Of a DNA stretch of 37,772 nucleotides, positions 5,765-37,687 are shown in pieces. The stretch lies in the IMG/VR virus record IMGVR_UViG_3300025110_000044, positions 1-37,772 of that record. One strand, written 5' to 3'. Positions within the stretch are counted from its first letter, which is position 1. Each line of letters starts with the position of its first letter. The position numbers and the translations under genes were made by a program. The notes under the pieces are model-generated. The model was given only the letters and a program-made list of their open reading frames with translations, was not told where the DNA came from and ran no database searches. The stretch is from a virus.

Positions 5765-7511
5765 AGACTATGATATGGATACAGATACTTCTATAAAAGA
5801 CCAAGCTGGTTACAGTCCAGATGAATCAGAAAGAAAATTTGTAAAGAAGCTAGAGACTAAGTTTGAAGAGTTTAAGAAAGCTCGTCAACATAAAGTTAAT
5901 AGATGGAGAAGAAATGAGGAGTTATATAACGGTGAGTTCTTAAAACCATTTAAACTACCTAAATACAAATCCAGAGTTGTAGCTAATACTATCCACTCAA
6001 TAGTAGAGACTATTTATGCTATCCTAACTGATAGATTTCCAAAGGTAGATATTATGCCTAAGAAAGAAGAACAAGTTGAATCAGCAAAAACTGGTCAAGA
6101 AGCTGTTGAATCTGAGATGGATAAAGCTAAATGTGTTAGAGCTATAAATGGTATGAAAAGAGATGGATTAATATACGGAAATGGCTTCCTTAAAGTGTGC
6201 TATAAAGATGGAATGATAGACTATAGTGTTCCAGATATATATTCAGTGTTTGTTGACCCATTAGCTACCAATTTAAAAGAATTAAAGTGTGTTGTGTTTG
6301 CTACTCCAACCTATATAGATGAGATAAAGAGAGATTACGAGAATGGAAAGTATGTTAAATCAGAGGGTAGATTAGATGAATATAGGAGTTTCATAAGAAA
6401 AGAAAATATTGATGGTGATGGTATACCAAAAGGAATAGAAGATAATGTGCATACAGATTCACCACTTGATGTAAATAGTAGAGGTTCAAGTGATGGTTCA
6501 TATGGTGGAGGACAAACACTACTTAAAGAGTCTTGGTATTATGAAGATGAACAGTTAATGGTTGCTACTTGGGCAGGAAATGTGTTATTACAGAAAGAAA
6601 TATCACCATATGAAGAGATTCCTCTTGTTACATTTCAGAACTATCAAGATGAACATCATTTCTGGGGTAAAGGTGAACCAGAGATTGTAGAATCACTTGC
6701 TGTTGGAACAGCTATATTATTAAGTCAAAGTGTAGACAATATTATATATCACGGTAACCCTGCTATGGTTATGTCTAAAACTATGGCTAAAACTCCTCAA
6801 AATAGACCAAGTGATAAGCCTGGACAAATCTATTACATAGGAGGTCCTCACGAGAGAGTAGAGAGATTACCTGCTGGGAATATATCATCTTCCACACTAC
6901 CAATGTTACAGAGTTTCCAACAAATGACTGATACAGTATCTGGAATACACGATATAACACAAGGTAGAAATCCAAGTGGAGTTACAGCTTCTAGAGCTAT
7001 TGCTCAATTACAAGAAGCTTCTCAGCAGGTTATAAGAGTAAAAGAAAGAGAAGTAGGCTCTGATGCAGTAATAGATATATATCGTAAGACTTTACAAATG
7101 CTTAGAAATAACTATGAACAAAATATTACCATTAGAAAGTATAATGAGGCTGGTACAGGCTTTGATTTTAGTCAGATTCCACCTTATTTACTTGACCCAG
7201 ATATGGATTTTAAATATGTGCCAGGTTCATCAATGCCAGAGTCTAGAGCTTCTAGAATAGACCAGGCATTAGATTTCTTCCAGATGGGATTATTGTCACC
7301 AGAACAATTCTGGAGATGGACACAGAAAGATATATCTAAAGAAATACTTGAAGAGATTTTAGCTATTAAAGAACAACAAATGATGGCTATGCAACAAGAC
7401 CAACAAACAATGAGCGAATCAACCAATCCAGATGAAATTATGAATGCTAAAATGAGATTAAGAGAAGAGCAAGGATTTGGAGAACCACCACCAGGAGGAG
7501 AGCAACAATGA
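5754..7511 (+). CDS. portal protein
   Basis: The dodecameric ring at the capsid vertex through which DNA enters and leaves. This 585-aa protein follows TerL directly and starts at TTG 5754 after a GGAGAT site, overlapping the TerL stop. An in-frame ATG at 5775 is a possible alternative. Typical portal features include an N-terminal segment with RWRRNEELYNG (residues ~50-60), an IVETIYAILTDRFP stem region, and a C-terminal helical domain ending in Gln/Met-rich sequence. The family resembles portals of P22-like and marine podoviruses. No frameshift was seen. Confidence 0.85.
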   Translation: MAIKDYDMDTDTSIKDQAGYSPDESERKFVKKLETKFEEFKKARQHKVNRWRRNEELYNGEFLKPFKLPKYKSRVVANTIHSIVETIYAILTDRFPKVDIMPKKEEQVESAKTGQEAVESEMDKAKCVRAINGMKRDGLIYGNGFLKVCYKDGMIDYSVPDIYSVFVDPLATNLKELKCVVFATPTYIDEIKRDYENGKYVKSEGRLDEYRSFIRKENIDGDGIPKGIEDNVHTDSPLDVNSRGSSDGSYGGGQTLLKESWYYEDEQLMVATWAGNVLLQKEISPYEEIPLVTFQNYQDEHHFWGKGEPEIVESLAVGTAILLSQSVDNIIYHGNPAMVMSKTMAKTPQNRPSDKPGQIYYIGGPHERVERLPAGNISSSTLPMLQSFQQMTDTVSGIHDITQGRNPSGVTASRAIAQLQEASQQVIRVKEREVGSDAVIDIYRKTLQMLRNNYEQNITIRKYNEAGTGFDFSQIPPYLLDPDMDFKYVPGSSMPESRASRIDQALDFFQMGLLSPEQFWRWTQKDISKEILEEILAIKEQQMMAMQQDQQTMSESTNPDEIMNAKMRLREEQGFGEPPPGGEQQ

Positions 7512-7756
7512 TTGACAAAAAAATATCTTTAGGAACAATATTGACAGGAGCTACTATAATAGGAACTTTTGTGTTTACCCAAGGCTCAACTCAAACTAAA
7601 ATAGAAACTGTTGAAAAAGAGCAATCTAAAGTAGTTAAAAGGGTAAAGGTTAATGAAGATAGTATTGTTGATTTAAAAATTGGTCAAGCAAAGATTGAAA
7701 CTAAATTAGATGATAGATTCAATAGATTAGAAGAAATATTAATGGATTTAGAATAG
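7508..7756 (+). CDS. 82-aa protein with one membrane span and coiled coil
   Basis: A hydrophobic segment at about residues 8-25 (LGTILTGATIIGTFVF) is followed by a heptad-rich, charged stretch to the end. This layout, one N-terminal span plus a cytoplasmic coiled coil, occurs in some holin-like and hemolysin-XhlA-like phage proteins, but also in unrelated membrane anchors. It overlaps the portal gene by 4 bp and sits among head genes rather than lysis genes, so a holin role is uncertain. Confidence 0.6.
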   Translation: MIDKKISLGTILTGATIIGTFVFTQGSTQTKIETVEKEQSKVVKRVKVNEDSIVDLKIGQAKIETKLDDRFNRLEEILMDLE

Positions 7757-7959
7757 TGGAATTGGAAGGAACAAACTTTGAACAAAAAAAAGACTCTCTC
7801 AGAGGTAGAGGTGTCTCAACATTAAATCAATGGTGTAAATTAAATGGCTATGAAGGTGTTACCAAGGAATGCATACAAAGTGCTATGAACCAAGATAACC
7901 CTAGATTAAACAAAATGGCTAAGACACACCTATTAAGAGGAGTAGCAAAAGATGAGTAA
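7756..7959 (+). CDS. 67-aa hypothetical protein
   Basis: Starts at GTG in a TAGTG junction with the preceding gene and overlaps the next gene by 8 bp. The product is soluble and mildly basic, with a pattern of alternating helices (LNQWCKLNGYEGVTKECIQ). No family was recognised. The overlaps on both sides support it as a real member of the head operon. Confidence 0.55.
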   Translation: MELEGTNFEQKKDSLRGRGVSTLNQWCKLNGYEGVTKECIQSAMNQDNPRLNKMAKTHLLRGVAKDE

Positions 7960-8254
7960 ATTAAAAGTAAAAAAGGTTTCTGGTAAATATGCCAGTAAAG
8001 GACCACACAGTAAAGGTCAACACGGTGGATTTGACGGTGTTAATGATACTGTAGATGTGACCAAACAATTAGAAACTGGTGGATACAGAGGTGGTTTAAA
8101 AGGTGATGTAGCTGATAAGTATATGGCTACAGTAAGAGTACCTGGTGGAGGAAAAGCTGTCACTTTTAAAAGGGTAAGAAGTCGTTTAAGCTCTAAAGGT
8201 ACTACAGGACAGTCTGCTAGATTACAACAAAGTGGCAGAACTTTAAAAGCATAA
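7952..8254 (+). CDS. 100-aa Gly/Lys-rich basic protein
   Basis: A basic protein rich in Gly, Lys and Ser, with a segment GPHSKGQHGGFDG near residues 18-30 and RVPGGGKAVTFKRVRSRL near 67-84. No membrane span or cysteines. It lies between portal and scaffold, where small head-assembly or virion-packaged proteins are common. Possible roles include DNA compaction or a minor head protein, but nothing in the sequence proves it. The ATG follows AAGAGGAG with normal spacing. Confidence 0.6.
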   Translation: MSKLKVKKVSGKYASKGPHSKGQHGGFDGVNDTVDVTKQLETGGYRGGLKGDVADKYMATVRVPGGGKAVTFKRVRSRLSSKGTTGQSARLQQSGRTLKA

Positions 8255-8295
8255 AAATTTGATTAGAAAAGACCAACTACGAAAGGAGTGTCTAA

Positions 8296-9132
8296 ATGCC
8301 TAATCCTTATAACGAGATAGAAATCTCGGAAGATGAAAAGGCTACCATATCAAGTGATGTGGAAGCAAGTCCGACTCAAGAAGCGAAAGATTCTGACAGT
8401 TCACCTGTAGAATCAAGTAACCAGGAAGTTACGGAGAGCAATGAAGAAGATGTTTATCAAATGTTTGATGAAGATGAAGGTAGATTTATTGATAATGATG
8501 AAATCCAGCGATGGAGAGATTCTTTTAACAATGAGTCTAACTGGCAAAAATCAAACACTGAAAAAGCTCAGAACATTGCAAAGTGGAATAAACTGATGGA
8601 TAAAGTGTCTTCTGATGAAGATTTTAGAAATCATATGATTGAATATTTTGGTGATGATAAAAACTCAATAAACTCTTTAGGTTTGAATGGACTTGAAGCT
8701 TTAGAGCAATTAGAAGGGTCTGAAACACCATTACAAGCTCAAAACCCAGATAAACTACAAAGTTTAGAACAAAGGTTAGATAATGTAGAGCTTGATAAAA
8801 GAACTGATGTTTTAGAAGTTCAATTCAATCAATTTGTATCTGAAAATAGTGAAACACTTGGAGATGAAAAAAATCAAGTTGAATTTCTTCAATTTATGAA
8901 TGATAGAGGTTTAGATGATTTTTCAGAAGCTTTTAAGTTTTGGAACTATGACAATACCCAGGAACAGTTGAAACACTATAAAGAACTTGAACAAAATAAA
9001 CAACGAAATACTGGTAAGGTTATTCAGACTAAATCTATAGGTGCATCGAAGGAAAAAACTCCTTCAAGAATACCTAGTGATTATAAAAATGTTAATATGG
9101 ATAATCCAGAAATAGCTAAGTATTTCGAATAA
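8296..9132 (+). CDS. capsid scaffolding protein
   Basis: This 278-aa, strongly acidic, mostly helical protein lies directly before the major capsid gene, the standard place for a podovirus scaffold such as T7 gp9. The first ~60 residues are Ser/Glu/Asp-rich and probably disordered, the middle is helical (QSLEQRLDNVELDKRTDVLEV), and the C-terminus has basic patches (KEKTPSR) that could contact the shell. It would guide procapsid assembly and leave before packaging. Strong AAGGAG site. Call made from position and composition rather than a diagnostic motif. Confidence 0.75.
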   Translation: MPNPYNEIEISEDEKATISSDVEASPTQEAKDSDSSPVESSNQEVTESNEEDVYQMFDEDEGRFIDNDEIQRWRDSFNNESNWQKSNTEKAQNIAKWNKLMDKVSSDEDFRNHMIEYFGDDKNSINSLGLNGLEALEQLEGSETPLQAQNPDKLQSLEQRLDNVELDKRTDVLEVQFNQFVSENSETLGDEKNQVEFLQFMNDRGLDDFSEAFKFWNYDNTQEQLKHYKELEQNKQRNTGKVIQTKSIGASKEKTPSRIPSDYKNVNMDNPEIAKYFE

Positions 9133-9154
9133 TTTCCGAAAGGGGAATATTTAA

Positions 9155-10273
9155 ATGGCTTTAAACTATAATAACTTGACTGCTTTGACAAGAGATAAGT
9201 TTATACCTGTTCTGGTTGATAATATTTTTAACTCCAATGTTTTAACTTTTAAGTTACTTAAAAATGCTGAAAAGTTAGATGGTGGTAAAAAGATTATTAC
9301 ACCAATAGAATACGGTAAAAATGCATCTCAAGGTTTCTATAGTGGTTATGATTCATTAACAACTGCAAACACAGAAATTGTGTCAAGTGCAGAGTGGGAT
9401 TGGACTCAAGCTTGGGCAGGTATTACTATATCTGGTGAAGAAGAACATAAAAATATGGGCGATTCACAAGTGTTAAGTCTATTAAAATCAAAATTAAAGA
9501 ATGCTGAAAAATCTTTAAAAGATTTATTTGGTACTCATTTATTTGATACTGACGGACCTAACGCAGGTGCATTCACTTCACTTATTGGTTCTGGAACACA
9601 AGCTTCAACAGCTTATGATGATACTGCTTTAATTGATATTACTGATGGTACACCTGCTACTATGTGGCATACACCAGGTGCTGTTGATAACTGTATTATT
9701 GGTTACAATAGAACTTTAGGTGGCATCGACTCAACAGAAAATGGTTCTGCTGGGAATGGTGGTGCTTGGTGGGATTCTAAATTAGCATCATTTGCTTCTG
9801 GTTCTGGGACAACATCTACACCCTGTACTTGGGATGAACTTGTTGCTGTAACAAATGGAACAGCTTTTATTGTTAAGAAAATGACTCAGATGTATTCTCA
9901 GTTAACTATTGACAATGATGCTCCAGATATGATTATCACAACAAATGAAATCTATGATGCTTATGAAAGTGCATTGCAGTCTAACAAAAGATTCGCTGGG
10001 AATCAGCAATTAGCTGATGCAGGTTTTCAAAACCTTGCTTTCCGTGGTGCTTCTGTTGTTGTAGATTCTCATTGTCCAGCTGGGATGATGATTTTCTTAA
10101 ATACTCGTTATCTTGACTTTAAAGTACACAACAAAAGAAACTTTACTTTTGATGGCTTTAAGAAAAGAGAAGATTCTGATGCAATGGTTGCAAAAATCTT
10201 CTGGATGGGTCAATTAACTTGTACTAATCCAAGAATGCAAGGTGCTATAGTAGGTGGACCTTCTGCATACTAA
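9155..10273 (+). CDS. major capsid protein
   Basis: The 372-aa shell protein. Its place after the scaffold, a very good ribosome site (AAGGGGAA) and the hairpin behind it fit the most abundant virion protein. Sequence features common to this podovirus capsid group include the N-terminal LTALTRDKFIPVLVDNIF, a central PDMIITTNEIYDAYESAL region, and the C-terminal FFWMGQL-like stretch (here KIFWMGQLTCTNPRMQG). A Gly/Ser/Thr-rich insertion around residues 150-225 may be a surface loop. Expected to adopt the HK97 fold. Confidence 0.85.
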   Translation: MALNYNNLTALTRDKFIPVLVDNIFNSNVLTFKLLKNAEKLDGGKKIITPIEYGKNASQGFYSGYDSLTTANTEIVSSAEWDWTQAWAGITISGEEEHKNMGDSQVLSLLKSKLKNAEKSLKDLFGTHLFDTDGPNAGAFTSLIGSGTQASTAYDDTALIDITDGTPATMWHTPGAVDNCIIGYNRTLGGIDSTENGSAGNGGAWWDSKLASFASGSGTTSTPCTWDELVAVTNGTAFIVKKMTQMYSQLTIDNDAPDMIITTNEIYDAYESALQSNKRFAGNQQLADAGFQNLAFRGASVVVDSHCPAGMMIFLNTRYLDFKVHNKRNFTFDGFKKREDSDAMVAKIFWMGQLTCTNPRMQGAIVGGPSAY

Positions 10274-19597: not shown

Positions 19598-20496
19598 TGA
19601 GTCAAGGATGGACACCAAAACAATGGGAAGATTATTTTAAAGAAAACCCACCTGCAACAAAAAGTTCAACAACAAGTTCAAAAAAGAAAAATCCTAAAGG
19701 TGATTTAGAGAATACTATAGAGGAAATGCAACTTTCAAGTATTCAGCATAAAATTAATAATGGTGTTGCTTTAAATGCACAAGATAGTACAATGATAGCT
19801 AAATGGCTACCAAATACTCCAGGATTTGAAGCTTATGAAGATAACCGAAGCAATTCTAGAAAACGGTTCGATAGTTTATCAGAGTTGTATAAAAATAGCA
19901 CTATTACACAGCAAGACAAATATGAATTAATGAACAGTAAATTATATGATTGGCATACTGACCCTTTAGGATTTAAAACAGATGAACACGGTAAGATACA
20001 TCCAAATAATCCAGAATACAAAAATAGTCAATCAAAACTAAAAAAAGAAGAAGCAAAAAAAATTAAACAAGAAGAAAAAATTAAAGAAAAAAAATCAAGA
20101 AAACAAAAGCTGATTACTAACATAAAAGATTTAACTGCACAGAAAGATTCTATGTATAAAAGTGATGTTCAGTCTAAGATTAATATGTTGGAGAATATAG
20201 AAAAAAGTATTAATTTACCTACTAATATGCCTAATTTATATGTAGTAAATTATACAAACACAGGTGATGTCTCAATTAAAATCCAAGAACCAAACATAAG
20301 GTCATTTATGGAAAATCCATTAATCAGCAATTTAAGTGAAGATGGAAAATTGAAATTATGGAATGATATAAACTCTAAGCTTCCAGAATTTAAAAAGAAA
20401 ATAGGTGAAATAAATAGAAATTTCATTAAATATAATCAAAAAGTAAAACTATTGAATGAAAAAGAAGCAGAACTTGATAAATTAAGGTATGAATAA
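19597..20496 (+). CDS. 299-aa Lys/Glu-rich helical protein
   Basis: A soluble protein with an Asn/Lys-rich N-terminus and a long charged helix or coiled coil around residues 145-175 (KLKKEEAKKIKQEEKIKEKK). A second helical region follows in the last 60 residues. It starts in a TAATG junction and its stop overlaps the giant gene. Its place between two ejection-type proteins suggests an internal virion or core protein comparable to T7 gp15, but I see no family motif. Confidence 0.6.
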   Translation: MSQGWTPKQWEDYFKENPPATKSSTTSSKKKNPKGDLENTIEEMQLSSIQHKINNGVALNAQDSTMIAKWLPNTPGFEAYEDNRSNSRKRFDSLSELYKNSTITQQDKYELMNSKLYDWHTDPLGFKTDEHGKIHPNNPEYKNSQSKLKKEEAKKIKQEEKIKEKKSRKQKLITNIKDLTAQKDSMYKSDVQSKINMLENIEKSINLPTNMPNLYVVNYTNTGDVSIKIQEPNIRSFMENPLISNLSEDGKLKLWNDINSKLPEFKKKIGEINRNFIKYNQKVKLLNEKEAELDKLRYE

Positions 20497-23400
20497 TGTC
20501 ACACACACCAGACCATTACCAAAATTTTGTAAAATTCGGCTCATTATATAATCCTCAAACTGGAGAAATTCATCAGTTCGACCCAGATGATGAAGGTAAT
20601 GCTTACCTATCTGGAACTTTAAGTAGAACTCAAGTAAATGCTACATTAGATTTATATGAATGGATAAATAAAAACCCAGAAAAAGCTATCGAAAATTTAG
20701 GTGAAGAGCAAATACTTCAAACTAATTATTTAGTACATAAAATTATAGCACCTAACTACAAGAATTGGTCAAACAATAATAAAGGTATAGATAATTATAA
20801 TATACCAAGAGAATATTATGACGAAAATGGTGATGGTTCTAATTTTAATCAATTATTAAAAAGAAATATAGACTCAGCTAATACTATTGAATCAGACCCT
20901 AGGATATACAGTGGTGTACATTCAACAAGAGAGCTTATTGTAGACAACAAATTAGAAAGCCAATATAATATATCATACGAAGATATTGTACAAAAAGATG
21001 GCGATGAAGATAAATATATATCGTTTGCAGAAGGTCCTTACCATAAATATGATTTCAAAGAAGGACTTTTAACCAAAGAATCTTCGGAAGAAAGATTTCC
21101 TAAACAACTAATAATATTAAAAGTAGACCCAGCTACAGGCGAACCAGAATATGTTGTTGATGATAAAGAAGAATTTGAAGGTTTAAATATTCAAGATATT
21201 TTATTTACAGTTCCCACAAAAAATAGAAGAGATGCATTAAGTAAAAAAACAGTTAATGATAAAATAGAAGACCCTACATTAAGTCCAGATTTTCATATAC
21301 CAATGTCAGAGATGGAAGAAGTTATAGGTAGAAGACCTGTGCCTCCTGGTCAAGAAAAAACTACTAATATAAATAAAATGAACAATGCAGGTTACTTAGT
21401 TTATGATTTAGAGACTAATATGTTTATGCCTGTAGGTAAAGAAAAAGAATTACAAGAATACTATGATTACCAGCAAAGTGAATTAGAGTGGAGAAAAAAA
21501 GCTGATAAAGAAGGGTTTCAATTATTAAACCAAAAAGATTTAGAAGAGCAGTATGAAGAAAGATATAGTAAAGAATTTTTAGAAAATTTAAAAACTAATC
21601 CATATATAAATAGAAATTGGATAGATAACCCTATATCAACTATTGGCTATTGGTTAAGAAATGGAATAGATTTTATGGACCAAGGTATGACTATGGGTCT
21701 TTTAAATAATACTATTTCAGAAATAAACCAATTAGCTGGTAATCAACCAGACGAAGATATAAATTTTGATAGAATGCATTTACAAAACAGTCAACAAGGA
21801 TATTCAGTTGTTGCAGTAAGAAAAGATGGAACAGTAGAGAGAGTAGACTTTAAAAATATGTTACCATCACATTTACATACCACAAATATTTTTGAAGATA
21901 GTGGAGTAAGCAAAGAAGTCCCAGATGCTGTAAGTTATAGAGTTTACTGGAATGGTACAGAAACTGGTATGGATGAACCTTTTGCAACTGCACAAGATGC
22001 ATATGATGCTGTATTTGATAGAATGAAAGATGCATACTGGGATGAATCATATAGAGGTTTAACTGTAAAAGCAATACAAAATTACGAACTATATCAAGAC
22101 CAGAGTTATTTATTTGATGCTTTAAATATATCTCACCAAATATTAGGTACAGTAGCAGGGTTCAAAGGAACAGGAGGTGTTTTATCTTATTCTAAAGCTT
22201 TCAAAGGATTAAGTCCAGTAGCACAAAGTTCTGTTATATTTGCTACACACGGATTACTAGGATATAATGACTCTGAAACCTGGGCAAACACACCTCTATC
22301 ACAATTAGCATTTAATACAGCTTTAGATGTGACCGTTGGTGCAATGCTACCTTATTTAGGGGGTTCTAAAAACATAAGAGGATTAGGTCTAAACTTTACA
22401 CCACAAGGTCCAGTATTAACTAACCCAAACACTGCTGATGCAGTATTTCAATTATTAAAAGGAAGCTTAGCTGTTGGTACCACTTTTGAAGTAAGTGTAT
22501 TTATGGAAGAATGGATGAAAGAATACGGTAAAGGAGTTGCTGATGAAGATGGTTTAAGAGATGTTCCCTGGTCTGAATTGTCAGAATCTTTTTGGGAAAC
22601 TGCTGAAAGGTATTCGACAGCCGAAGGTGTAAAGTCAGTTATAACTAATTTAGGTATAGCAACATTACTTCACAGTAGTAGTAGTATAAAAAGATTTATA
22701 AAAGGAGGAAAAGCAGAAGCTCAATTCTGGAAAAGAAATATATCTTCATTGAATGAAAAAATAATTAGCAATTTTACTAGTAAAACTAAAATGCCTAAAT
22801 GGTTAGAAACGGAAAAAAATAGAACAGATTTAAATTCTGACCAGAAATTAATGTTACATTCAAGATTAGCAACGGTAGAAGGAAATTCTCTATATCACGA
22901 ATTTGCAAACATAGAATTTTATAAAGAGCAGTTAGAATTAATTTTTGGCAAAAAGTATAATAAAAAGACTGGTAAGTGGGAATTTGTAACTAACAATGAC
23001 CAATTACAAGCAGAATTAAAGTTTATGGAAGATGTATTCATTATGCTTTCTAATTATCAAAATGCTACTGCAAAATATACTGAAAAAGATTTTAGAAATG
23101 TACAGGAATTTAATAAAGTATTTAAAGTAAATGAGCAAGGTCAAGCTGAATTAGTAATAGAACTTAAAATGCCAGACGGAAATGTAATAAATCTTTCAAA
23201 TTATATAGTTTTAAAAAATGGTGTTATAGACTCTAAAGCTACATTAAAAAATCTAATTGGAGTACACCCTTTTAAAAACCCACAAACAGGTGAACAGTTC
23301 CACAAATTATCAGATTTTTTTAAAAACCATATAGCTAAAAAAATAAGTGATTTAGCAGAATGGGATGGGACATTTGATTTAACACAAAAATATACAGAAC

Positions 23401-26400
23401 CAAAAACAAGAAAAACTTCTACAGGTGAACCATATCAGATTGTTACAGTTAATAAAGGTGAAACTTTAAATGAAATTGCAACTAGGTATCAAGTTTCTCC
23501 TAACGATTTAGTAACTTGGAATGGTATTAAAAATCCAAATCATTTAAGAATAGGTCAAGAACTAGTATTACAGAACCCAGAAGGTTTTGATGAAGTTATA
23601 GGAGATGTACCAACACAAAATACATTATTACACAACTTAAACAGCACATTAACACATACTAATAATATAAAGGTAGAATTTATAGGTGAGAGGTATGCTT
23701 TTGGAACATTAGAAGAGTTTCAAATGATTCCTAATTATAATGATGTGTCTGATTTAGTAGAACCAGTAAATTTAAGTAAACAGAAAAAGAGGGAATTAGG
23801 ATATGACGAAAATGCCGAAATTTATACCATTGAAGTCGCTGGACAAACAGAAGGGTCTGGAGCTGAGGGGATTAAAACCACAGTCAGCTCTAACACGAGT
23901 CCGACAGTATACCTGGAAGAAATTACAGAGTCAGTCTACAGACAACTCGGACAAATAGGTGAAACTCAATTATTAGCGAATATAAACAAATTCACTGACA
24001 AATTAGAGACTTTAATTGAAGAAGCAGGTATGCCTTCAAAAGAAGTTAAAATTGAGCTATTTAGCTCATTATTTGAAGATTGGGTGCTAAACCAATCACC
24101 TAACTTAATAGATAATTATATAACTCAAGAATCTATACAAAATCCAGAATTTGATGCTATTATAAACCAAAACAGAGCAGAGATAGATGTATTAATGAAT
24201 AAATTTTGGAATGTGATGTCTCAAAACTCAAATGGTATACCTGCTGACCAAATGCTTAAAAATTTAGTATTTGCTTTACAAGATGGAATGTTTGAACAGA
24301 TAGTACCAATGAATACAAGTATAGTGTCTTTAAGAGAACTACTTTCTAATCCATCAACATTTAAACTTCAAGTAAGTGATTATAATAAAAATAACAATTT
24401 TGAGTCAGATTTAGTAAGGCAGGAAGGTAAAATTATAGATAAGTTAGAACTATCTAACGAATCAAAGAAAGAATTGTTCCCAGAAAATTATTCAGCAACA
24501 TTACCATCTGCTGAAAAACCATCTAATGAAGGTCATAAAGTAGAGCTTATAGAAGTGGACCAACAGGGTTTAGAAGACTGGGAAACTTTAGTTTTAAATA
24601 GCTGGAGACCACCAGAAGGTTTACCAAATAATTTAAGTCCAGTAGAATGGAGAGGTGTTGTACTTAAAAATATATTTTCTAATAATTATATAGACAAGGT
24701 TTTAAGTCCTAAAGCAGAAAATTTAAATACATTAATTGTACCTAAAACACTACAAGATATAGATAACAAATTATTTAACCTACTAAATATAGTAGAAAAT
24801 CCTATATCAATAGCTAATTCTGTAAAACAAGCAGAAGTTATAAAAGTCAAAGAAATGATTATAAGAGACTGGAATAATGGTAAAGTGTTTAAACCAACTG
24901 ATTTAACCAAACTGTCTGTATCCCAAATAGATAAAAAAGCACAAGATTTATCATTGTTTGCAAAATCATTATTTAGAGACCCTAAACTTGATATAGAACA
25001 AGGTGAATGGTGGGATAGTGGAGTGAAGTTTTTAAGAGAGAGTTTAACTGATGAAATGCCACAATTAGCAAAAGAAGATAATTGGGCATTATTTAAAATG
25101 GTTAGTGGTATAACTTCACAACAAAGAAAATTAGACCCTAATTTATCATTAGCTACTTATGTTATAGGTGAATATTTAAAAGATGGCAATTTAAGACATA
25201 CTAAACCAAGTGGAGCTAATCTAAGTCTTCCTCTTATTGAACAACAGTTTAATAAATTAACATTATTAAAAGAAAAATTTGGTTCCTGGGAATCTGTGAA
25301 TAATTTCCTTATACAACCAACAACAGTAAAAGATTTAAGAAATCTATTTGTTAAAGAATTTGGTATGACTTTACCCAATGCCAGAAAATGGGCAAAGAAT
25401 TTAGAAGGATTAAATACTAATTTAGTTAATGATGATATAACATACCCAGCTATGATGTTTGGTCCTAAAATAGGTGCAATGATAGGTGTTCAAAATAATT
25501 TAGATTTATCTGTTAACGATTTATGGATGGCAAGGTTTGCACAAATTGGTTTTGGTGAATTAACAAAAGATGAAGTTATTTCATCTAATTTAAATAAAAT
25601 TATAGACAAAGCAATGGAAAAAACAGGTAACGATTTAGGTATATCTGTAAGAGGAGTACAAGCTATAACCTGGGTAGCTATGAAAGATTTATTTGGTTTA
25701 TATGGTGGAGAAAAAACTACCGATGATTATATAACTGCTATTAAAAGGAGAAAACAAAGATATGAAGATTTTATTACAACCAGACCACTTGAGGGAGCTG
25801 ATGAAGCCAGAATTGCAAAAGCTTTTAGGGAATATGACATCGGTGACAAAACTTATAGAGAAGAATTTGCAAGAGGAGATATTAGCTTTAAGCTCAAAAA
25901 GTCAAGACTCAAAAATAAAGTAATCGAAGTTGCAGATATAATAGAAAAACAATTTCCAAATGGTATTAAGTCACAGTCTTTAATTAATGTTCTTACACAA
26001 AAACACCAGGTATCACCAGACCAAATTAAATGGTTAGGGTTACAGGATTGGATTAAAACTTTAGGTTACAAACCTAGTGAAAAAATACCTATGCATCTTA
26101 TAAAAGACAAACTAAATGAAGACCCTATAAATATAAGACACATAACCAGAACAGAGACTCCTTCACTTTCAAAACCAGATATAAAACAACATAGTGTATG
26201 GTCAGAGTCTGAAAGCAATACTCGAAACTGGGAGGTGGCAGACCACAATATTAAAGAAGAGGACATAAGGTTCAGACAGGAGTATTTATATTTTGTTGAG
26301 AATTTTATGGACATAGCTAAACATAAAGAAGTACAAGAATATTTTAAAGACATATATTCATTTACAGATGGTAACCCAGACTTTTTTAAAAATCCTAATG

Positions 26401-29400
26401 AATTTAGAGATAAGTATCTACAAGGATACCACAGCAATCCTCGTATGATGAAATCAATATTGGAACAATTACCAGAAAATAATGAGTATTATATTAAATA
26501 TAAAGAAATGATGGATGAATCTATTGGTCCAGAAGCTGAAAGAATTGTATACGAACAAAGAAAAATGTCAGAATTACAAGATTTTTCTTGGGATATAAAT
26601 TTTAGAAATGCGAATATGCCTGTAAATGAATTAGAGGGTAAAAAATTTATAACTAAAGATTATAGAGTCAGAACGAAATTAGCTAAAAATTTAGTCAAAT
26701 ATCTTCCAAACCATTTTGTCGCAGATGGTCCTCATATTAGTGTTCTTGGGGGAAAACCAGGCATTTATGGAAACGGTGAAACAAATATATCAATAAGAAA
26801 AAATCTAAGATTGGTAAATAATTTAAATAGCTTATTTAATGTACCTTGGAATTATACTGACCCAAATACTCAAGTTAGTGCATCGCAAATTAGGCTTATC
26901 ACCAACAGAAGATTAGAGCTTCAAAACACTCCAAAAAACATTTGGAGCGAAATAGGTAAAAGATTTTATGGAGAAACTGACTATAGAAATTTATATCAAA
27001 CCTGGCACAATATAGACCCAACAGAACCATTGATAGATAACCTTTTAGATAGGATGGATAAAATATCAATTAGACAAGTAGTAGAAAATGATTTTAATTT
27101 TTACTTAAACCCAGAAACAGGTATATACCAAAGCACTTATGGTGTGTTTTCTGATAAATCATTATATACTAAAGTAATACCTAATTGGATGAATAAAACA
27201 AGTCATATACCTATGGAAAAAGCAACTATAGATTTATATAACACTATTTTTGATGAACACTATATTTGGTCATCTGACGATTATAATCCAGGAATGGATT
27301 ACACTTTAAATAAAGAAGGTTTTCATAGTAAGTCATATGGAAATTCGTTAGAAAATTTCAAACCACAATTCTCTCAATATAAAAGGGGTTTTGCATTAAT
27401 TAAAGGAGCAAAAGATTACCACGAATTTGAAGTTCTTACACCACGAAACAGTGGCTTAATAGATAATATAAGTCAAATACCAACAGCAGTTCTAAATGAA
27501 TATATGGCTGAAAATAATATAACAGATAAAGCAGATATTGCTGTAGATGATTTAATTGAATTTGCTAACTTTAGCCTTAGAGGTTCTTTTGCAGGAGGAC
27601 CTGTTGCTACACAAGATGGATTGAGGCATTCTATAGATGGTGAATTCACAGAAGGTCATTTTGATGACCCTAATGTTATTGGTCATATTAGAGGAAATTA
27701 TATAGAGCCACAAGTGTGGAATAACAGTATCAAAAACTATGAAACTTTACCATTTAAATTTGGGATGATAGGTGAGGTTCAAGGTGATTGGAGTCAAAAA
27801 TATAACCAGGCTGAAACAGATAAAAAACCACCATTTCCTGGAATAACATATCTTAAACCATTAATAAAAAATTATATAAGCGAAGCAGTGAAAAATGGTG
27901 CTAATGGTATAATTTTAAATGGTGGGTTACAAGCTTATACTGATTGGTACGGAGCTTTAGATGGAATGAAACATAAATTTAAACTGCCTTCTGCATTTAA
28001 TTCAGAGCTAGTGGATAAGGAAACTCCTTACACATTTGAGCCAGTAACTACAAGTGCAAAGGAAACAGACAACCCTTTTGAACCTACTAAAGATGTTACT
28101 TTAGATATTCAATTACAATCCACAAGTGGTGAATTAATTGTTTTAAATGCTAAGATTGGACCTTCTGGCACTCCTCAAGATAAATTGCAATATGAGTTCT
28201 ACACTAAATTAGCAGGTAGAATGGCTCAGTCTAGCCCACCAGAAGACATAGAAGAGGCTTTTGTTATTATAAAAGATTATATGAACAAAAAATTATTAGC
28301 AGACCCTTCATATGATATTCTTTTCTACGAAAGAATTCTACATCAACACAACGAAAGTAAAGTTGACCTAATTATCCCTAAAGAATTTGTTAATTTAATT
28401 ATACAAAACAAAACATTAGAAGATTTTAATCATAGTTATAATAACCGAACAAAAATAGTATCAAAAAATAAAGAAGGCATAACCCAGGTAAAGGTGGACT
28501 TTAAGGCAAATAATCAAGAAATAAATGTGACAACAAGTTCAATTAAAGATTTAACACCAGACGGATTACAACAACCTTTCTTACTTAAACATTATGATGA
28601 GTCACTTGTAAATTCAGTATCAAAATTGCTAAAACCTTTTGGTATAAGACCTCAAGTCTATTGGTTAGATTATTCACCAGAAAATATGACACCACTAAAA
28701 TTTGCAAAACTTTGGGAGTTTACACACCCTGCCAGACACCCAATGTTTAAAAACTTTGATAAATTAGATGCTAATTCGGAGAAATTTCAAGTTCCCTTTA
28801 TAGGATATTCATTTATTAAAGGGGAAGGTAAAAAAGATTTTAAAAAGTTTATACAAGAGCAAAACTTTAATTCATTTAAATTAAAGAAACCTCGTTTAAC
28901 TGATAAACAAAAATCTGAAATATATAATGAGAATGTTTCACCACCATCAAAAGTTGAACAAATAAAATTAAGAGTAAAAGCAACTAAAGATAGAGCTAAA
29001 AATAATTTTTCTTCTAAGGAGGAATTTGTTAAAACGGTGAATAGAACATACAGACCTGTTTCTTCAGTTTTAAAAGGTATAGGTAATCCTGTTTTTAAAA
29101 GAATAGTTAGAAAACAAGTTACTGATGCAATGCTTACAAAAGGTCAATGGAACTCAGAAGCTGAACCTTTTTTAATGGATATAATTAAATTAGAAAAAAC
29201 AAATTATAAAGAATATGAAAATTTATCATTAGCTTTATTTAATGGTGATTTAGAAATGGTAGAAAGTATATTTGAAAGAAATGGTTTTGATATAGCTAAT
29301 TATGGTTCTGTAACAAGCTTAACTGACAATGTATTTGAATCAGCAGTTTCCCTGGGAACAGATATACATAAGCTTGATAATTATTTTCCAAGAAGAGTAA

Positions 29401-31349
29401 AAAATGTTCAAAAATTATGGGAGCAGATGGGTCAAGATAAAAAGTCAGAATACGAGGCTGTGAAAAGACAAAAAGAAAAAGAATTAGGCAAAACTTTAAG
29501 TGAAGCTGAAGAGGCAAGTTTATTGGAAAGCTTTTTAAGAGGATTTGTGCCAAAAGGCAACAGAAAACCAGGATATACAAAATCAAGAAATGTAGAACTT
29601 GTTACAAGAGATATGCTACCTTTTTATGATAAACCTCAAGATGCTTTACTTAATTATATTGACTCCTTTGCTGAATACTTATCAATAGCAAAAGTCTATG
29701 GTTCTGGTAATGTTGATGAAAGTATAGGAAAGTGGGTAAATGAGCAATTTAAATTAGGAAACATAAAAGGTGAGCATATTGATAGGGCTAAAAATATTAT
29801 AACAGAGCATTATGCATCAAGCGAAGTTGCTGGTTGGGTAGCACCTGTTAAAAATACCATTTACACATTAACTATGGGCAGTTTTTCTTCTGCATTAAGA
29901 CAGATAGGGGACCAAACCTGGGCAATCCAGGAAAATGGTCTTTTAAAAACATTGAAATATGATATGAAAGCTTTACTAAATTCAAATAAAATTAAGCTAT
30001 CAGACCTTTCTGTTGATAATATTATGTATGAATTACAATCAAAAACAGTATCTGGTAGAATGGTTAGCGATGTTTTTAAATTGGCTGGTATAAAATTAAT
30101 TGATGGGATTGGAAAAGAATCATTAGTTAATGGTGTTTATGAAAAATATGTTGAATTAGCTAATAAGGGTGAATACGAAGGCTTTTTAGCTGAGTTTAAA
30201 ACAGATAAAGATTTAAGAAGATTAGATTATTATTTCAGTGCAGAAGAAAAAATACAGTTATTTGAAGATTTAAGAAGTGGGGAAGTAACACCGTTAGTTC
30301 AAGAATTAGCTTTAAATGTTTTATTAGATTGGCAACCAGTAGCAAAATCAGAGGTTCCTTCAAATTATAAGAAACACCCTCTATGGTACCAATTAAAAAC
30401 ATACACTATAAAACAAATAAACTCATTTAAAGATAATGCTATAGATGATATTGCTTTATATGCTAAGGAACATAGAAATGCAAAAACTAAAAAAGATAAA
30501 GAAAAATATAGAGAGTTATTAGAGCAATCTGTAATTAATTTAATGAAATTAGTTGGTGTATTTATGGCAACAAATGCTGGTGCAGATGTGGCAATAGATT
30601 ATACAATGGGTAGAGATATAGATTTAAGTGATTTAGCTATACAGCAAATATTTAAATTACTTGGTGCAAGTAGATATATGCAGTTTCAAGCTGAGAATGA
30701 AGGTTTGCCAATGGCAATGTTTAAACAAGTGTCACCAGCAACTATAGGTGTGAGTAATGATTTTTATAGAGATTTTGTAGGCAAACCAATAACAAAGTAT
30801 ACTCCAGAAAATAAAATAGGTTTATTACCAAGATATTTAGATAATAAGAGATATAACACTTTAAAGAATAAAACTAATTTAAGTAAAGATGAAAAGAAGG
30901 AATTAGAGAAATTAGAACATAAATTAAAAATACCTTGGTATTATCAATCTTTATCACTCAAGTTTGTACCATTAGTAGGTAAACCATTATATTGGCATAA
31001 AGGTTTAGGTCATCAAAAGGTTATTCAAAGAAGAATGTGGAAATACAGAAGCGATAGCGAAGAATTAGATTTACAACCTAATGAAAGAGAGGACTACATT
31101 AACACAGCACAATATGCTTTAAATGCAAATTATATTACTGAAAAACAATATAACAAGCAAGTTTCATATGCTGTAGGATACGAAAAGTATAGAAAAATAA
31201 TGAGCAGTGGTGAATGGGGTAGTGATGAATTATCATACTATAAAAAGGCTTTAAAAATGTTAAAAGATTATGATGCTATAAGTAGTGAATTGTACTGGCG
31301 AAGATATGATGGAATAGATAAATTTTATGAGGAAAAATATACAAAATGA
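20496..31349 (+). CDS. giant 3617-aa polyvalent/ejection protein with LysM
   Basis: One uninterrupted frame of 10.85 kb. Apolar, membrane-prone parts lie near residues 548-670 and 3350. A LysM peptidoglycan-binding domain is clear at about 982-1026 (VNKGETLNEIATRYQVSP). A helical part at about 1837-1855 (QVSPDQIKWLGLQDWI) and a stretch with H2388 and E2427-x-Q-x-D-W2432 match motifs I recall from large phage 'polyvalent' proteins. The C-terminus (about 2840-3400) resembles the polyvalent-associated region LPD38. It most likely serves as the DNA ejection/anti-host virion protein, equivalent in place to T7 gp16 but three times longer. I found no transglycosylase motif. Confidence 0.8.
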   Translation: MSHTPDHYQNFVKFGSLYNPQTGEIHQFDPDDEGNAYLSGTLSRTQVNATLDLYEWINKNPEKAIENLGEEQILQTNYLVHKIIAPNYKNWSNNNKGIDNYNIPREYYDENGDGSNFNQLLKRNIDSANTIESDPRIYSGVHSTRELIVDNKLESQYNISYEDIVQKDGDEDKYISFAEGPYHKYDFKEGLLTKESSEERFPKQLIILKVDPATGEPEYVVDDKEEFEGLNIQDILFTVPTKNRRDALSKKTVNDKIEDPTLSPDFHIPMSEMEEVIGRRPVPPGQEKTTNINKMNNAGYLVYDLETNMFMPVGKEKELQEYYDYQQSELEWRKKADKEGFQLLNQKDLEEQYEERYSKEFLENLKTNPYINRNWIDNPISTIGYWLRNGIDFMDQGMTMGLLNNTISEINQLAGNQPDEDINFDRMHLQNSQQGYSVVAVRKDGTVERVDFKNMLPSHLHTTNIFEDSGVSKEVPDAVSYRVYWNGTETGMDEPFATAQDAYDAVFDRMKDAYWDESYRGLTVKAIQNYELYQDQSYLFDALNISHQILGTVAGFKGTGGVLSYSKAFKGLSPVAQSSVIFATHGLLGYNDSETWANTPLSQLAFNTALDVTVGAMLPYLGGSKNIRGLGLNFTPQGPVLTNPNTADAVFQLLKGSLAVGTTFEVSVFMEEWMKEYGKGVADEDGLRDVPWSELSESFWETAERYSTAEGVKSVITNLGIATLLHSSSSIKRFIKGGKAEAQFWKRNISSLNEKIISNFTSKTKMPKWLETEKNRTDLNSDQKLMLHSRLATVEGNSLYHEFANIEFYKEQLELIFGKKYNKKTGKWEFVTNNDQLQAELKFMEDVFIMLSNYQNATAKYTEKDFRNVQEFNKVFKVNEQGQAELVIELKMPDGNVINLSNYIVLKNGVIDSKATLKNLIGVHPFKNPQTGEQFHKLSDFFKNHIAKKISDLAEWDGTFDLTQKYTEPKTRKTSTGEPYQIVTVNKGETLNEIATRYQVSPNDLVTWNGIKNPNHLRIGQELVLQNPEGFDEVIGDVPTQNTLLHNLNSTLTHTNNIKVEFIGERYAFGTLEEFQMIPNYNDVSDLVEPVNLSKQKKRELGYDENAEIYTIEVAGQTEGSGAEGIKTTVSSNTSPTVYLEEITESVYRQLGQIGETQLLANINKFTDKLETLIEEAGMPSKEVKIELFSSLFEDWVLNQSPNLIDNYITQESIQNPEFDAIINQNRAEIDVLMNKFWNVMSQNSNGIPADQMLKNLVFALQDGMFEQIVPMNTSIVSLRELLSNPSTFKLQVSDYNKNNNFESDLVRQEGKIIDKLELSNESKKELFPENYSATLPSAEKPSNEGHKVELIEVDQQGLEDWETLVLNSWRPPEGLPNNLSPVEWRGVVLKNIFSNNYIDKVLSPKAENLNTLIVPKTLQDIDNKLFNLLNIVENPISIANSVKQAEVIKVKEMIIRDWNNGKVFKPTDLTKLSVSQIDKKAQDLSLFAKSLFRDPKLDIEQGEWWDSGVKFLRESLTDEMPQLAKEDNWALFKMVSGITSQQRKLDPNLSLATYVIGEYLKDGNLRHTKPSGANLSLPLIEQQFNKLTLLKEKFGSWESVNNFLIQPTTVKDLRNLFVKEFGMTLPNARKWAKNLEGLNTNLVNDDITYPAMMFGPKIGAMIGVQNNLDLSVNDLWMARFAQIGFGELTKDEVISSNLNKIIDKAMEKTGNDLGISVRGVQAITWVAMKDLFGLYGGEKTTDDYITAIKRRKQRYEDFITTRPLEGADEARIAKAFREYDIGDKTYREEFARGDISFKLKKSRLKNKVIEVADIIEKQFPNGIKSQSLINVLTQKHQVSPDQIKWLGLQDWIKTLGYKPSEKIPMHLIKDKLNEDPINIRHITRTETPSLSKPDIKQHSVWSESESNTRNWEVADHNIKEEDIRFRQEYLYFVENFMDIAKHKEVQEYFKDIYSFTDGNPDFFKNPNEFRDKYLQGYHSNPRMMKSILEQLPENNEYYIKYKEMMDESIGPEAERIVYEQRKMSELQDFSWDINFRNANMPVNELEGKKFITKDYRVRTKLAKNLVKYLPNHFVADGPHISVLGGKPGIYGNGETNISIRKNLRLVNNLNSLFNVPWNYTDPNTQVSASQIRLITNRRLELQNTPKNIWSEIGKRFYGETDYRNLYQTWHNIDPTEPLIDNLLDRMDKISIRQVVENDFNFYLNPETGIYQSTYGVFSDKSLYTKVIPNWMNKTSHIPMEKATIDLYNTIFDEHYIWSSDDYNPGMDYTLNKEGFHSKSYGNSLENFKPQFSQYKRGFALIKGAKDYHEFEVLTPRNSGLIDNISQIPTAVLNEYMAENNITDKADIAVDDLIEFANFSLRGSFAGGPVATQDGLRHSIDGEFTEGHFDDPNVIGHIRGNYIEPQVWNNSIKNYETLPFKFGMIGEVQGDWSQKYNQAETDKKPPFPGITYLKPLIKNYISEAVKNGANGIILNGGLQAYTDWYGALDGMKHKFKLPSAFNSELVDKETPYTFEPVTTSAKETDNPFEPTKDVTLDIQLQSTSGELIVLNAKIGPSGTPQDKLQYEFYTKLAGRMAQSSPPEDIEEAFVIIKDYMNKKLLADPSYDILFYERILHQHNESKVDLIIPKEFVNLIIQNKTLEDFNHSYNNRTKIVSKNKEGITQVKVDFKANNQEINVTTSSIKDLTPDGLQQPFLLKHYDESLVNSVSKLLKPFGIRPQVYWLDYSPENMTPLKFAKLWEFTHPARHPMFKNFDKLDANSEKFQVPFIGYSFIKGEGKKDFKKFIQEQNFNSFKLKKPRLTDKQKSEIYNENVSPPSKVEQIKLRVKATKDRAKNNFSSKEEFVKTVNRTYRPVSSVLKGIGNPVFKRIVRKQVTDAMLTKGQWNSEAEPFLMDIIKLEKTNYKEYENLSLALFNGDLEMVESIFERNGFDIANYGSVTSLTDNVFESAVSLGTDIHKLDNYFPRRVKNVQKLWEQMGQDKKSEYEAVKRQKEKELGKTLSEAEEASLLESFLRGFVPKGNRKPGYTKSRNVELVTRDMLPFYDKPQDALLNYIDSFAEYLSIAKVYGSGNVDESIGKWVNEQFKLGNIKGEHIDRAKNIITEHYASSEVAGWVAPVKNTIYTLTMGSFSSALRQIGDQTWAIQENGLLKTLKYDMKALLNSNKIKLSDLSVDNIMYELQSKTVSGRMVSDVFKLAGIKLIDGIGKESLVNGVYEKYVELANKGEYEGFLAEFKTDKDLRRLDYYFSAEEKIQLFEDLRSGEVTPLVQELALNVLLDWQPVAKSEVPSNYKKHPLWYQLKTYTIKQINSFKDNAIDDIALYAKEHRNAKTKKDKEKYRELLEQSVINLMKLVGVFMATNAGADVAIDYTMGRDIDLSDLAIQQIFKLLGASRYMQFQAENEGLPMAMFKQVSPATIGVSNDFYRDFVGKPITKYTPENKIGLLPRYLDNKRYNTLKNKTNLSKDEKKELEKLEHKLKIPWYYQSLSLKFVPLVGKPLYWHKGLGHQKVIQRRMWKYRSDSEELDLQPNEREDYINTAQYALNANYITEKQYNKQVSYAVGYEKYRKIMSSGEWGSDELSYYKKALKMLKDYDAISSELYWRRYDGIDKFYEEKYTK

Positions 31350-31810
31350 ATATAGATTTTAGAAAAATAATGAGTAACTTAATATATAATACATTACTTA
31401 AAATGCCAGGAGGATACTACACTGACGAAGCACACAAAATGGTATTTAGAACTGGTATGGCTGAAACAAAATACAAAACCATAAAACAATACAATGGTGG
31501 TCCAGCTATAGGTTTTTTTCAAATAGAGCCAGACACCTTAAATGACACAATGAAAAACTATGTCAAGTACAGACCTTCTCTACTTGACTGTTTAAAAAAA
31601 CTAGGATTGAATGAAGATGATATGGAATATTCTGTCCTTACAAACATAGCCTTACAGATAGCTTTTTGTAGGATACATTATAGGAGAAATCCATATAAAA
31701 TACCAGGAACATTAGAAGAGCAGGGGAAATATTGGAAGGAACACTATAACACTAAACTTGGAAAAGGTACTGTTAGGCATTTTATAGAGTCTAACACAAA
31801 TGAACAATGA
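31346..31810 (+). CDS. lysozyme-like peptidoglycan hydrolase (endolysin candidate)
   Basis: This 154-aa protein has a lysozyme-superfamily pattern: a candidate catalytic Glu at E40 (RTGMAETKYK), then GGPAIGFFQIEP at residues 50-61, and a C-terminal WKEHYNTKLGKGT motif seen in phage enzymes of this type. It lacks a signal peptide. It overlaps the giant gene by 4 bp and the MscS-like gene by 11 bp, so it may work either as endolysin at the end of infection or as a virion enzyme. The first reading is preferred because a membrane protein follows. Confidence 0.75.
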   Translation: MNIDFRKIMSNLIYNTLLKMPGGYYTDEAHKMVFRTGMAETKYKTIKQYNGGPAIGFFQIEPDTLNDTMKNYVKYRPSLLDCLKKLGLNEDDMEYSVLTNIALQIAFCRIHYRRNPYKIPGTLEEQGKYWKEHYNTKLGKGTVRHFIESNTNEQ

Positions 31811-32180
31811 AATAGAAGAAACATTAAAAGGACTATTAAGCAACTATACTTGGCTATTTATAGTAGGTTTAGGGGCTTTGTTATTTAGAACCACTATAGC
31901 GAGAGCTGTTGATGGTATTATGATTTTTGCAGGACACAACTATAATACTGATGATGTGGTTGAAATAGAAATGGAAGGAAAAACCTTTCCAGGTCGATTA
32001 GTTAGAGTAGGAGTATGGTCTACCGTTATATACTTATACTGGATTAAAAACGGTGAAGTGGTCGGTGGAAGTAAAATGGTTGTTAGTAACGATAAGCTTA
32101 AAGATTTAAAAATATGTAAACCATTACCATTATTGGATTTACATAAATATAAGGATAATGTAACAGACAATACTGATTAA
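31800..32180 (+). CDS. MscS-like minimal membrane protein, possible holin
   Basis: A single membrane helix (residues ~17-37, WLFIVGLGALLFRTTIA) runs into a typical MscS beta domain (AGHNYNTDDVVEIEMEGK, GRLVRVGVWSTVIYLYW, and MVVSNDKL near 90-97). Compared with MscS, only the pore helix and the middle beta domain remain. The other transmembrane helices and the alpha/beta cytoplasmic part are absent. It directly follows the lysozyme-like gene, so it could form the lesion that releases or activates the enzyme, or relieve osmotic stress. The function is inferred; the family match is good. Confidence 0.7.
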   Translation: MNNEIEETLKGLLSNYTWLFIVGLGALLFRTTIARAVDGIMIFAGHNYNTDDVVEIEMEGKTFPGRLVRVGVWSTVIYLYWIKNGEVVGGSKMVVSNDKLKDLKICKPLPLLDLHKYKDNVTDNTD

Positions 32181-32191
32181 GGAGAATAAAA

Positions 32192-32401
32192 ATGAGTATG
32201 CTTTCTAAATTAATAGAAGAAAAAAAGGATGATGTAATAGAGAGTGCCTTTTCTGAAGAGATGAGGGATAAGATTGTAAAAGCTATAAATGAATGCATTG
32301 ATATACCTTTAGTATCTGAAAAAAGAGAAGAAAAATGGATAGGTGCTACCTGGGATATTATATGCGATGTAATTAAACCATTACTTAAAAAGACACTTTA
32401 G
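32192..32401 (+). CDS. 69-aa hypothetical protein ending the late operon
   Basis: A short, charged, probably helical protein with an apolar C-terminal half (WIGATWDIICDVIKPLLKK). AAGGAGA ribosome site. No full membrane span. It is the last gene before a terminator-like hairpin and might be a third lysis-cluster gene, but no family was recognised. Confidence 0.6.
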   Translation: MSMLSKLIEEKKDDVIESAFSEEMRDKIVKAINECIDIPLVSEKREEKWIGATWDIICDVIKPLLKKTL

Positions 32402-37404: not shown

Positions 37405-37594
37405 GTATAGTAATACAGATAGAATACTAAGAAGCATAGAAGCTACATTAAGGGATGGTGAGATAAGAGCTATGTTTAAGGGTATGGGTATGGTATCAGA
37501 ATTAGCATATGATAATAAGATTGACATTATAGCTGTACACTATAACATATCAAATGAATCAGTAAGGAAAGCATTGCATAACGATAAGAACTAA
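37391..37594 (+). CDS. 67-aa protein with HTH-like C-terminus
   Basis: Starts at ATG 37391 after GGAGAG and overlaps the endonuclease gene. The last ~20 residues (IIAVHYNISNESVRKAL) have a helix-turn-helix-like pattern. It is the final gene of the early operon and its stop opens the 96-bp repeat. Could be a small DNA-binding regulator; the fold call is by eye only. Confidence 0.55.
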   Translation: MNKHKYSNTDRILRSIEATLRDGEIRAMFKGMGMVSELAYDNKIDIIAVHYNISNESVRKALHNDKN

Positions 37595-37687
37595 TGACTG
37601 AGGGAAATGGGTGGCAGGACAAAGATACCTTGTAGGGTATGAGTAGGTCATAAACAAAAAGAGCCAGGGATTAACCTGGCTCTTTTT
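37592..37687. repeat. 96-bp direct repeat, right copy
   Basis: Identical to bases 1-96. Unlike a simple contig overlap, it is followed by 85 bases unrelated to the sequence after the left copy. See the finding on divergent flanks. Confidence 0.95.

Follow-up and report, generated by a model that had tools for sequence, protein, structure and literature searches.

A minimal MscS-like membrane protein encoded beside a putative endolysin gene in an uncultured virus, with a possible role in lysis

In an ocean virus record of 37,772 bases, which was analysed over its full length and is called the window here, we found a protein of 126 aa that combines a single membrane span with an MscS-type beta domain, and whose gene overlaps that of a probable endolysin. 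The gene, its family, the MscS-type domain and the gene neighbourhoods of the family are established in this study. As to function, we tentatively assign to this mini-MscS a putative role in late membrane permeabilisation or lysis, a reading to which we give a probability of about 45%. The features of the window that are relevant for the following are:

7508-7756, + strand: coiled-coil protein of 82 aa with an N-terminal TM segment (cc21), alternative holin candidate (hydropathy; HMM E-value 9.8e-35)
31346-31810, + strand: lysozyme/transglycosylase-like protein of 154 aa, probable endolysin of the phrog_3108 family, without N-terminal membrane segment
31800-32180, + strand: MscS-like mini-protein of 126 aa with one span and a beta domain (ATG start; overlap of 11 bases with the gene at 31346-31810)
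31851-31886, + strand: hydrophobic span, residues 18-29, between the invariant W18 and R/K30 (conservation and charges in 38 sequences; hydropathy)
31887-31931, + strand: continuation of the helix, residues 30-44, presumably TM3b-like according to the MscS alignment (structure alignment, column conservation)
31956-32117, + strand: MscS-type beta domain, residues 53-106 (PF00924 in relatives, strands of the model, fold search)
32121-32141, + strand: conserved C-terminal motif PLPLLDL, residues 108-114 (P108, L109, L112, D113 and L114 invariant in 38 sequences)
32192-32401, + strand: small soluble protein of 69 aa, labelled NIPI (HMM E-value 8.5e-17; recurs in 9 of the 13 related loci that were searched)

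The window has a GC content of 32.9% and carries genes with PHROGs matches to terminase, portal and major head protein. An exact copy of bases 1-96, with a terminator-like hairpin, occupies 37592-37687 and is followed by 85 more bases; owing to this exact end repeat of 96 bases, the record may represent a nearly complete genome. On the + strand, an ORF of 3,617 aa (20496-31349) precedes the lysozyme-like gene, the gene of the MscS-like protein and that of the 69-aa soluble protein, in this order. A LysM-like stretch is visible by eye at residues 983-1025 of the long ORF, and for its last 1,115 aa no relative was confirmed in viral contigs. A frame of 3,406 aa is present in G036, one of the TerL relatives described below.

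The 154-aa lysozyme-like protein matched phrog_3108, a family of 'unknown function' (E-value 1.4e-28), and nothing useful was returned for it by Pfam or PDB searches. Relatives are present in 154 of 50,697 phage records. Among the matches listed (50 of the 154 records), an annotation as endolysin or putative endolysin is given for two and as lytic murein transglycosylase for another two; RNA polymerase subunit, the name of a further one, is unlikely, and the others are hypothetical proteins or lack an annotation. The phrog_3108 relative comes after an annotated holin in three Vibrio phage records, of which two are near-identical. Given the annotated relatives and this preceding holin, putative endolysin appears to be a reasonable name for the 154-aa protein. 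In 22 of 23 marine contigs (L001-L023, with L007 cut), the phrog_3108 endolysin opens with a hydrophobic, signal-anchor-like segment of its own; this segment is absent from the phrog_3108 endolysins of the window and its TerL relatives.

Judged by conservation, the reading frame at 31800-32180 is a genuine gene, since relatives with 36-59% identity match it over nearly its whole length. A chance hydrophobic ORF was ruled out by the conservation of such full-length relatives across many contigs. The overlap with the lysozyme-like gene, as given by the original prediction, was confirmed and amounts to 11 bases. The encoded protein contains a single hydrophobic stretch, with the highest mean hydropathy over 19 residues (1.71) at residue 19. 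In an alignment of 38 sequences, the invariant positions include W18, G45, N49, D51, D52 and the PL..LDL motif, and position 30 is always R or K. Within residues 11-40, an entropy below 0.9 bits was obtained for positions 14, 18, 23, 27, 29, 33, 34 and 38. Six of these (14, 18, 23, 27, 34 and 38) are spaced about four residues apart, with 29 and 33 off that pattern, a spacing which roughly resembles a pore-lining or packing face. The window protein itself deviates from the family by S for G at 14, A for E at 34 and D for E at 38. If the offset of 82 at the start of the structure alignment with MscS described below also applies further along the helix, L27 and G39 presumably correspond to L109 and G121 of MscS. 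The part before the span has a net negative charge in all 38 sequences, between -4 and -1 with a mean of -2.45; the stretch of 15 columns that opens with R30 carries 0 to +1 (mean 0.29). From the net negative N-terminal side we infer an N-out/C-in topology, which is the same direction as in TM3 of MscS.

The AlphaFold model calculated from the single sequence was poor (pLDDT 50.3). With an alignment of 38 rows, a monomer model of middling confidence was obtained (pLDDT 70.7, pTM 0.47), which consists of a helix (residues 2-45) followed by strands at 53-58, 61-70, 74-83 and 86-96. The Foldseek comparison of this model with the PDB placed the MscS superfamily at ranks 1-22, with probabilities of 0.99-1.00 and a best E-value of 1.7e-3, so that no PDB match reached 0.001; 3t9n and 3udc, titled 'membrane protein' only, are counted within these ranks as the MscS structures which we take them to be. 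VIA-align, where Z under 8 is middling, yielded Z 8.3 for Flycatcher1 and Z 7.4, with an rmsd of 3.0 over 88 residues, for E. coli MscS, and mapped residues 10-109 of the model on residues 92-180 of the latter, corresponding to TM3 and the beta domain. Among the best 50 rows, rows 1-44 (Z 8.3-6.3) and row 47 are of MscS type, and the first unrelated structure has Z 6.0. Tudor, ribosomal and Hfq small beta-barrel folds ranked below the MscS rows in the fold searches and were not preferred.

In the Pfam scan, the MscS beta domain PF00924 scored 15.2 bits on the window protein, which is under the curated cut-off of 20.2. Eight relatives were scanned singly: five are above the cut-off (L132, L133, L135, L136 and L137, with 23.5-27.6 versus 20.2 bits), L138 and L151 are under it and L139 has no match. 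Across the 38 aligned members, PF00924 was matched by 11 at an E-value of 1 or below (best 3.2e-6). The MscS-like proteins of three TerL relatives gave no Pfam match, with NCBIfam the window protein had no match and L136 showed a weak MscS line (E-value 0.055), and PDB sequence searches with the window protein, A1 and A2 returned no MscS chain, which speaks against easy recognition. Neither TM1-TM2 nor the C-terminal alpha-beta domain of MscS was found, the protein having one span and 126 aa and the Pfam results containing no other MscS domain. A known holin family was not matched by the window protein in PHROGs, Pfam or NCBIfam, and the Pfam matches of the 38 family members include no holin. 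We hold the predicted MscS-type fold with high confidence, and a membrane oligomer is probable. The initial description of the protein as a pore helix plus the MscS beta domain, with one span in 126 aa, is supported by the model, the fold searches and PF00924 in relatives. A comparison of the predicted fold with MscS had been suggested along with it, and the monomer model, Foldseek and VIA-align all place the beta domain there.

With an alignment of the copies from three TerL relatives (36-45% identity to the window protein), 182 relatives were found in uncultured viral contigs, and 80 of these were kept. The listed members are 115-138 aa long. A tblastn search with four members detected no relative in the 50,697 phage records, a collection from which close relatives of the window may be missing; the comparison of family members with these records also gave three weak lines, which fell on sliding clamps. 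In a Foldseek search against viral models (BFVD), A0A1B1IQW5, A0A516MLU7 and A0A516LVN0 were the best matches (E-values 4.3e-9, 1.3e-5 and 1.0e-4). These three unnamed proteins of 104-138 aa, with 21-28% identity to the model, are probably members or relatives of the family, and by their E-values public relatives of the mini-MscS probably exist. As hints to possible hosts only, L212 lies in a Pelagibacter bin and L213 in a Prochlorococcus single-cell assembly, both contigs being phage-like by eye.

Further information on the position after the endolysin comes from TerL-related records, of which 80 were kept and 50 searched. A phrog_3108 endolysin is present in 11 of the 50 and an MscS-like gene in three, namely G029 (11 kb only), G030 and G036, and in all three this gene directly follows the endolysin. 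In seven of the other eight endolysin records, the endolysin is followed, directly or one to two genes on, by a protein of 94-107 aa, termed TMCC here, in which an N-terminal span is combined with a coiled coil. (TMCC, hol48, hol36, cc21, NELD, NIPI, KLDD, MPE and ZnMPE are our own labels, and 'holin-like' was assigned from size and hydropathy.) Whole-record profile searches of the window and the 11 relatives found TMCC in 7/12, the MscS-like gene in 4/12, both in 0/12 and neither in G050; a TMCC line in G036 with an E-value of 0.008 lies within the 3,406-aa frame and was taken as chance. TMCC resembles phrog_18771 and phrog_9829, families of 'unknown function', and showed no channel match. 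The names BhlA/UviB-like and XhlA-like for small TM proteins found no backing in Pfam and were not adopted. Another small TM protein, hol36 (57-61 aa), occurs in 8/12 records, comprising six of the seven with TMCC and two of the four with the MscS-like gene, and is absent by whole-record search from the window, G030, G026 and G050. Among the TerL relatives, the MscS-like protein occurs in place of TMCC, and a separate small holin candidate is often encoded beside it.

For the hol48, hol36 and TMCC families no member was found in the window, where the MscS-like protein stands without another small TM holin candidate in its cassette. The original prediction, according to which no ordinary holin is evident nearby, holds for the surroundings of the gene, but is weakened by the 82-aa protein cc21, which lies 24 kb from the MscS-like gene in the window and whose family is found at +1 of MscS-like genes in six other loci. 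With cc21 at 7508-7756, other holin candidates remain in the window genome, and the holin could be encoded elsewhere in it.

In a FastTree tree of 38 sequences, the window protein groups with a large-phage clade (support 0.995), apart from the copies of the TerL relatives; the branch of the window protein is long, which calls for caution. Since the two are located in different clades, the slot after the phrog_3108 endolysin may have been filled twice, by different MscS-like lineages. If the tree is right, the finding of two lineages directly after this endolysin would speak for a functional link.

The gene context in the wider family was counted in 77 loci, after three of the 80 kept had dropped out (two lack a full ORF and one was lost by the simple gene picker). 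L198 and L129 denote one and the same contig, and most records are fragmentary or give no statement of their completeness. A phosphoesterase-type gene at -1 or -2 is the most frequent neighbour, present in 62/77 loci. It is metallophosphoesterase-like in 41 of these (at -1/-2) and zinc-ribbon phosphoesterase/exonuclease-like in 21 (at -2), and both never occur together. One member of each type was assigned, to the phrog_221 metallo-phosphoesterase (E-value 7.7e-24) and the phrog_284 exonuclease (E-value 2.6e-59), respectively. An example of a phrog_221 metallophosphoesterase travelling with the MscS-like gene is found at 4710-5489 of L191. A TM protein of 48-71 aa, hol48, is encoded at -1/-2 in 38/77 loci, or 39/77 if one at +6 is counted. 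We do not regard hol48 as a proven holin, the only match being NF037944 (holin_2) with an E-value of 0.49 for one member.

Endolysins of three types lie close to the MscS-like gene in these 77 loci: 23 have a GH24 lysozyme at -3, two an M15 enzyme at -2 and two phrog_3108. This corresponds to 27/77 loci by the gene picker, which missed L178, and hence to at least 28/77. A whole-record search of 30 longer contigs from the 80 records detected an endolysin in 21 (GH24 in 6, M15 in 13, phrog_3108 in 2). This endolysin lies less than 2.5 kb from the MscS-like gene in 10/21 (6/6 GH24, 2/13 M15 and 2/2 phrog_3108) and 10-35 kb from it in 11/21, all of the latter being M15. A strict coupling to the endolysin was rejected on these distances, and the expectation that homologues always neighbour a lysozyme-like gene did not hold, the endolysin being closer than 2.5 kb in fewer than half of these records (10/21). 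GH24, M15 and phrog_3108 were all absent from nine of the 30 records, seven of which form the L132-L138 group; such records may be fragments or may encode other enzymes. The nearest relatives of the window protein by sequence are found in this large-phage group. In L132-L136, its five loci passing the gene picker (marine phage contigs of 65-169 kb), a zeta-toxin-like kinase (PF06414, E-value 6.7e-10 for L132) is encoded upstream and a protein that looks beta-barrel-like by eye downstream. Signal-like N-termini were also seen by eye near the MscS-like gene of these contigs (about 5150-9600), on beta-barrel-like, thioredoxin-like and lipoprotein-like proteins. In 6/77 loci the MscS-like gene lies just upstream of a 767-aa gene that is portal-like by eye.

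We infer the topology, the oligomer, the late expression and the pore of the mini-MscS as follows. The protein would insert its pore-helix-like span with the N-terminus outside and hold the MscS beta domain on the cytoplasmic side, lacking TM1-TM2 and the C-terminal vestibule. Several copies would join through their beta domains and form a ring in the inner membrane, presumably made late in infection together with the late genes. In the lysis phase this ring would alter the permeability of the membrane, acting as a holin-like pore itself or in partnership with a separate small holin. For a lysis role we count the adjoining endolysin, the three endolysin types found nearby elsewhere, the alternation with TMCC and the apparently separate acquisitions; against it count the distant endolysin in 11/21 records, the phosphoesterase as the commoner neighbour, the other small TM proteins and the context of the zeta-toxin kinase. 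In many relatives these other small TM proteins could be the holin instead. The narrower reading that the mini-MscS is itself the holin could appeal to the window cassette, which has no other recognisable holin, and to MscS-like genes of different clades placed beside the endolysin more than once, and we consider it decidedly doubtful. In the original proposal of a channel-derived lysis protein, the structural half stands, as the MscS-type domain and the single span are present, and the lysis half is backed in part by the adjacency to the endolysin.

Other roles have to be weighed against late permeabilisation. As an osmotic safety valve, the mini-MscS would relieve turgor and delay early bursting in the manner of the host MscS, and its position among lysis genes would reflect late expression only. 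The MscS fold of the model and the endolysin 10-35 kb away in 11/21 records are in line with such a valve, as is a survey of estuarine viruses, whose available text reports that mechanosensitive channel genes, with MscL as the channel named, become more abundant with salinity and suggests osmotic roles for them (PMC13288924). We nevertheless hold it to be rather unlikely, because the protein lacks TM1-TM2 and alternates in the TerL relatives with TMCC, which has no channel match. TM1-TM2 is the tension-sensing part of MscS.

The phosphoesterase-type gene at -1/-2 in 62/77 loci and hol48 in 38/77, together with the phrog_221 and phrog_284 matches of the phosphoesterase-type members, would also fit a membrane module apart from lysis, serving for example envelope change or superinfection exclusion, in which the ring is a scaffold without a pore. 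Several records keep this set even though the endolysin is 10-13 kb off. The window and the searched TerL stretches, however, contain neither the phosphoesterase nor hol48, and four of them keep the MscS-like gene by the endolysin, so that we regard such a module as unlikely. A virion or genome-ejection part, that is a membrane ring delivered with the DNA or assembled for its entry, is suggested by the frequent location of the gene among structural-looking genes (by eye), including the 6/77 loci upstream of the portal-like gene. It is very improbable for a small single-span protein which has no structural family match and whose neighbours vary between the groups. Late permeabilisation or lysis is the reading that we prefer.

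Channels of the MscS superfamily, such as E. coli MscS, MscK, YnaI and plant MSL10, share the last membrane helix and the beta domain with the mini-MscS, which differs from them by its one span, the lack of TM1-TM2 and of the C-terminal alpha-beta vestibule, and its origin from a phage gene. A virus-encoded protein, A0A076FGK6 of the Aureococcus anophagefferens virus, is annotated as putative small-conductance mechanosensitive channel (Foldseek E-value 8.4e-3), but has 261 aa compared to 126 aa in the window; the host of this virus is a eukaryotic alga. Single-TM holins and lysis-cassette proteins with a TM segment plus coiled coil are, like the mini-MscS, small, with a single N-terminal span, and adjoin an endolysin. 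TMCC-type proteins have a coiled coil where the mini-MscS has its beta domain, and their role as holins is putative as well. In the accessible part of its description, gp51 of the Paraglaciecola phage PANV1 is a phage protein with an HHpred match to the MscS structure 6RLD and one weakly predicted TM helix, and we liken it to the mini-MscS on this description; PANV1 is an isolated myovirus, and unlike the mini-MscS, gp51 is not linked there to lysis (PMC9239159). The terms mechanosensitive, holin and endolysin do not occur in the available portion of a paper devoted to uncultivated pelagiphages (PMC9599517). In titles and abstract openings, with subscription journals thinly covered, we found no description of a mini-MscS in lysis cassettes.

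The protein represents a very small MscS module, consisting of one helix and a beta domain, and its family counts at least 182 relatives in uncultured viral contigs. If it acts as a holin or as the partner of a holin, it would link two families of pores that have been studied apart, and would offer a natural experiment on whether the pore helix and beta domain of MscS suffice for assembly and opening when the tension sensor is missing. Should it serve as an osmotic valve, phages would manage the turgor of their host before lysis. The gene is short and open to assay in laboratory E. coli under either reading. The mini-MscS of marine viruses may help to control the leaking or bursting of infected cells.
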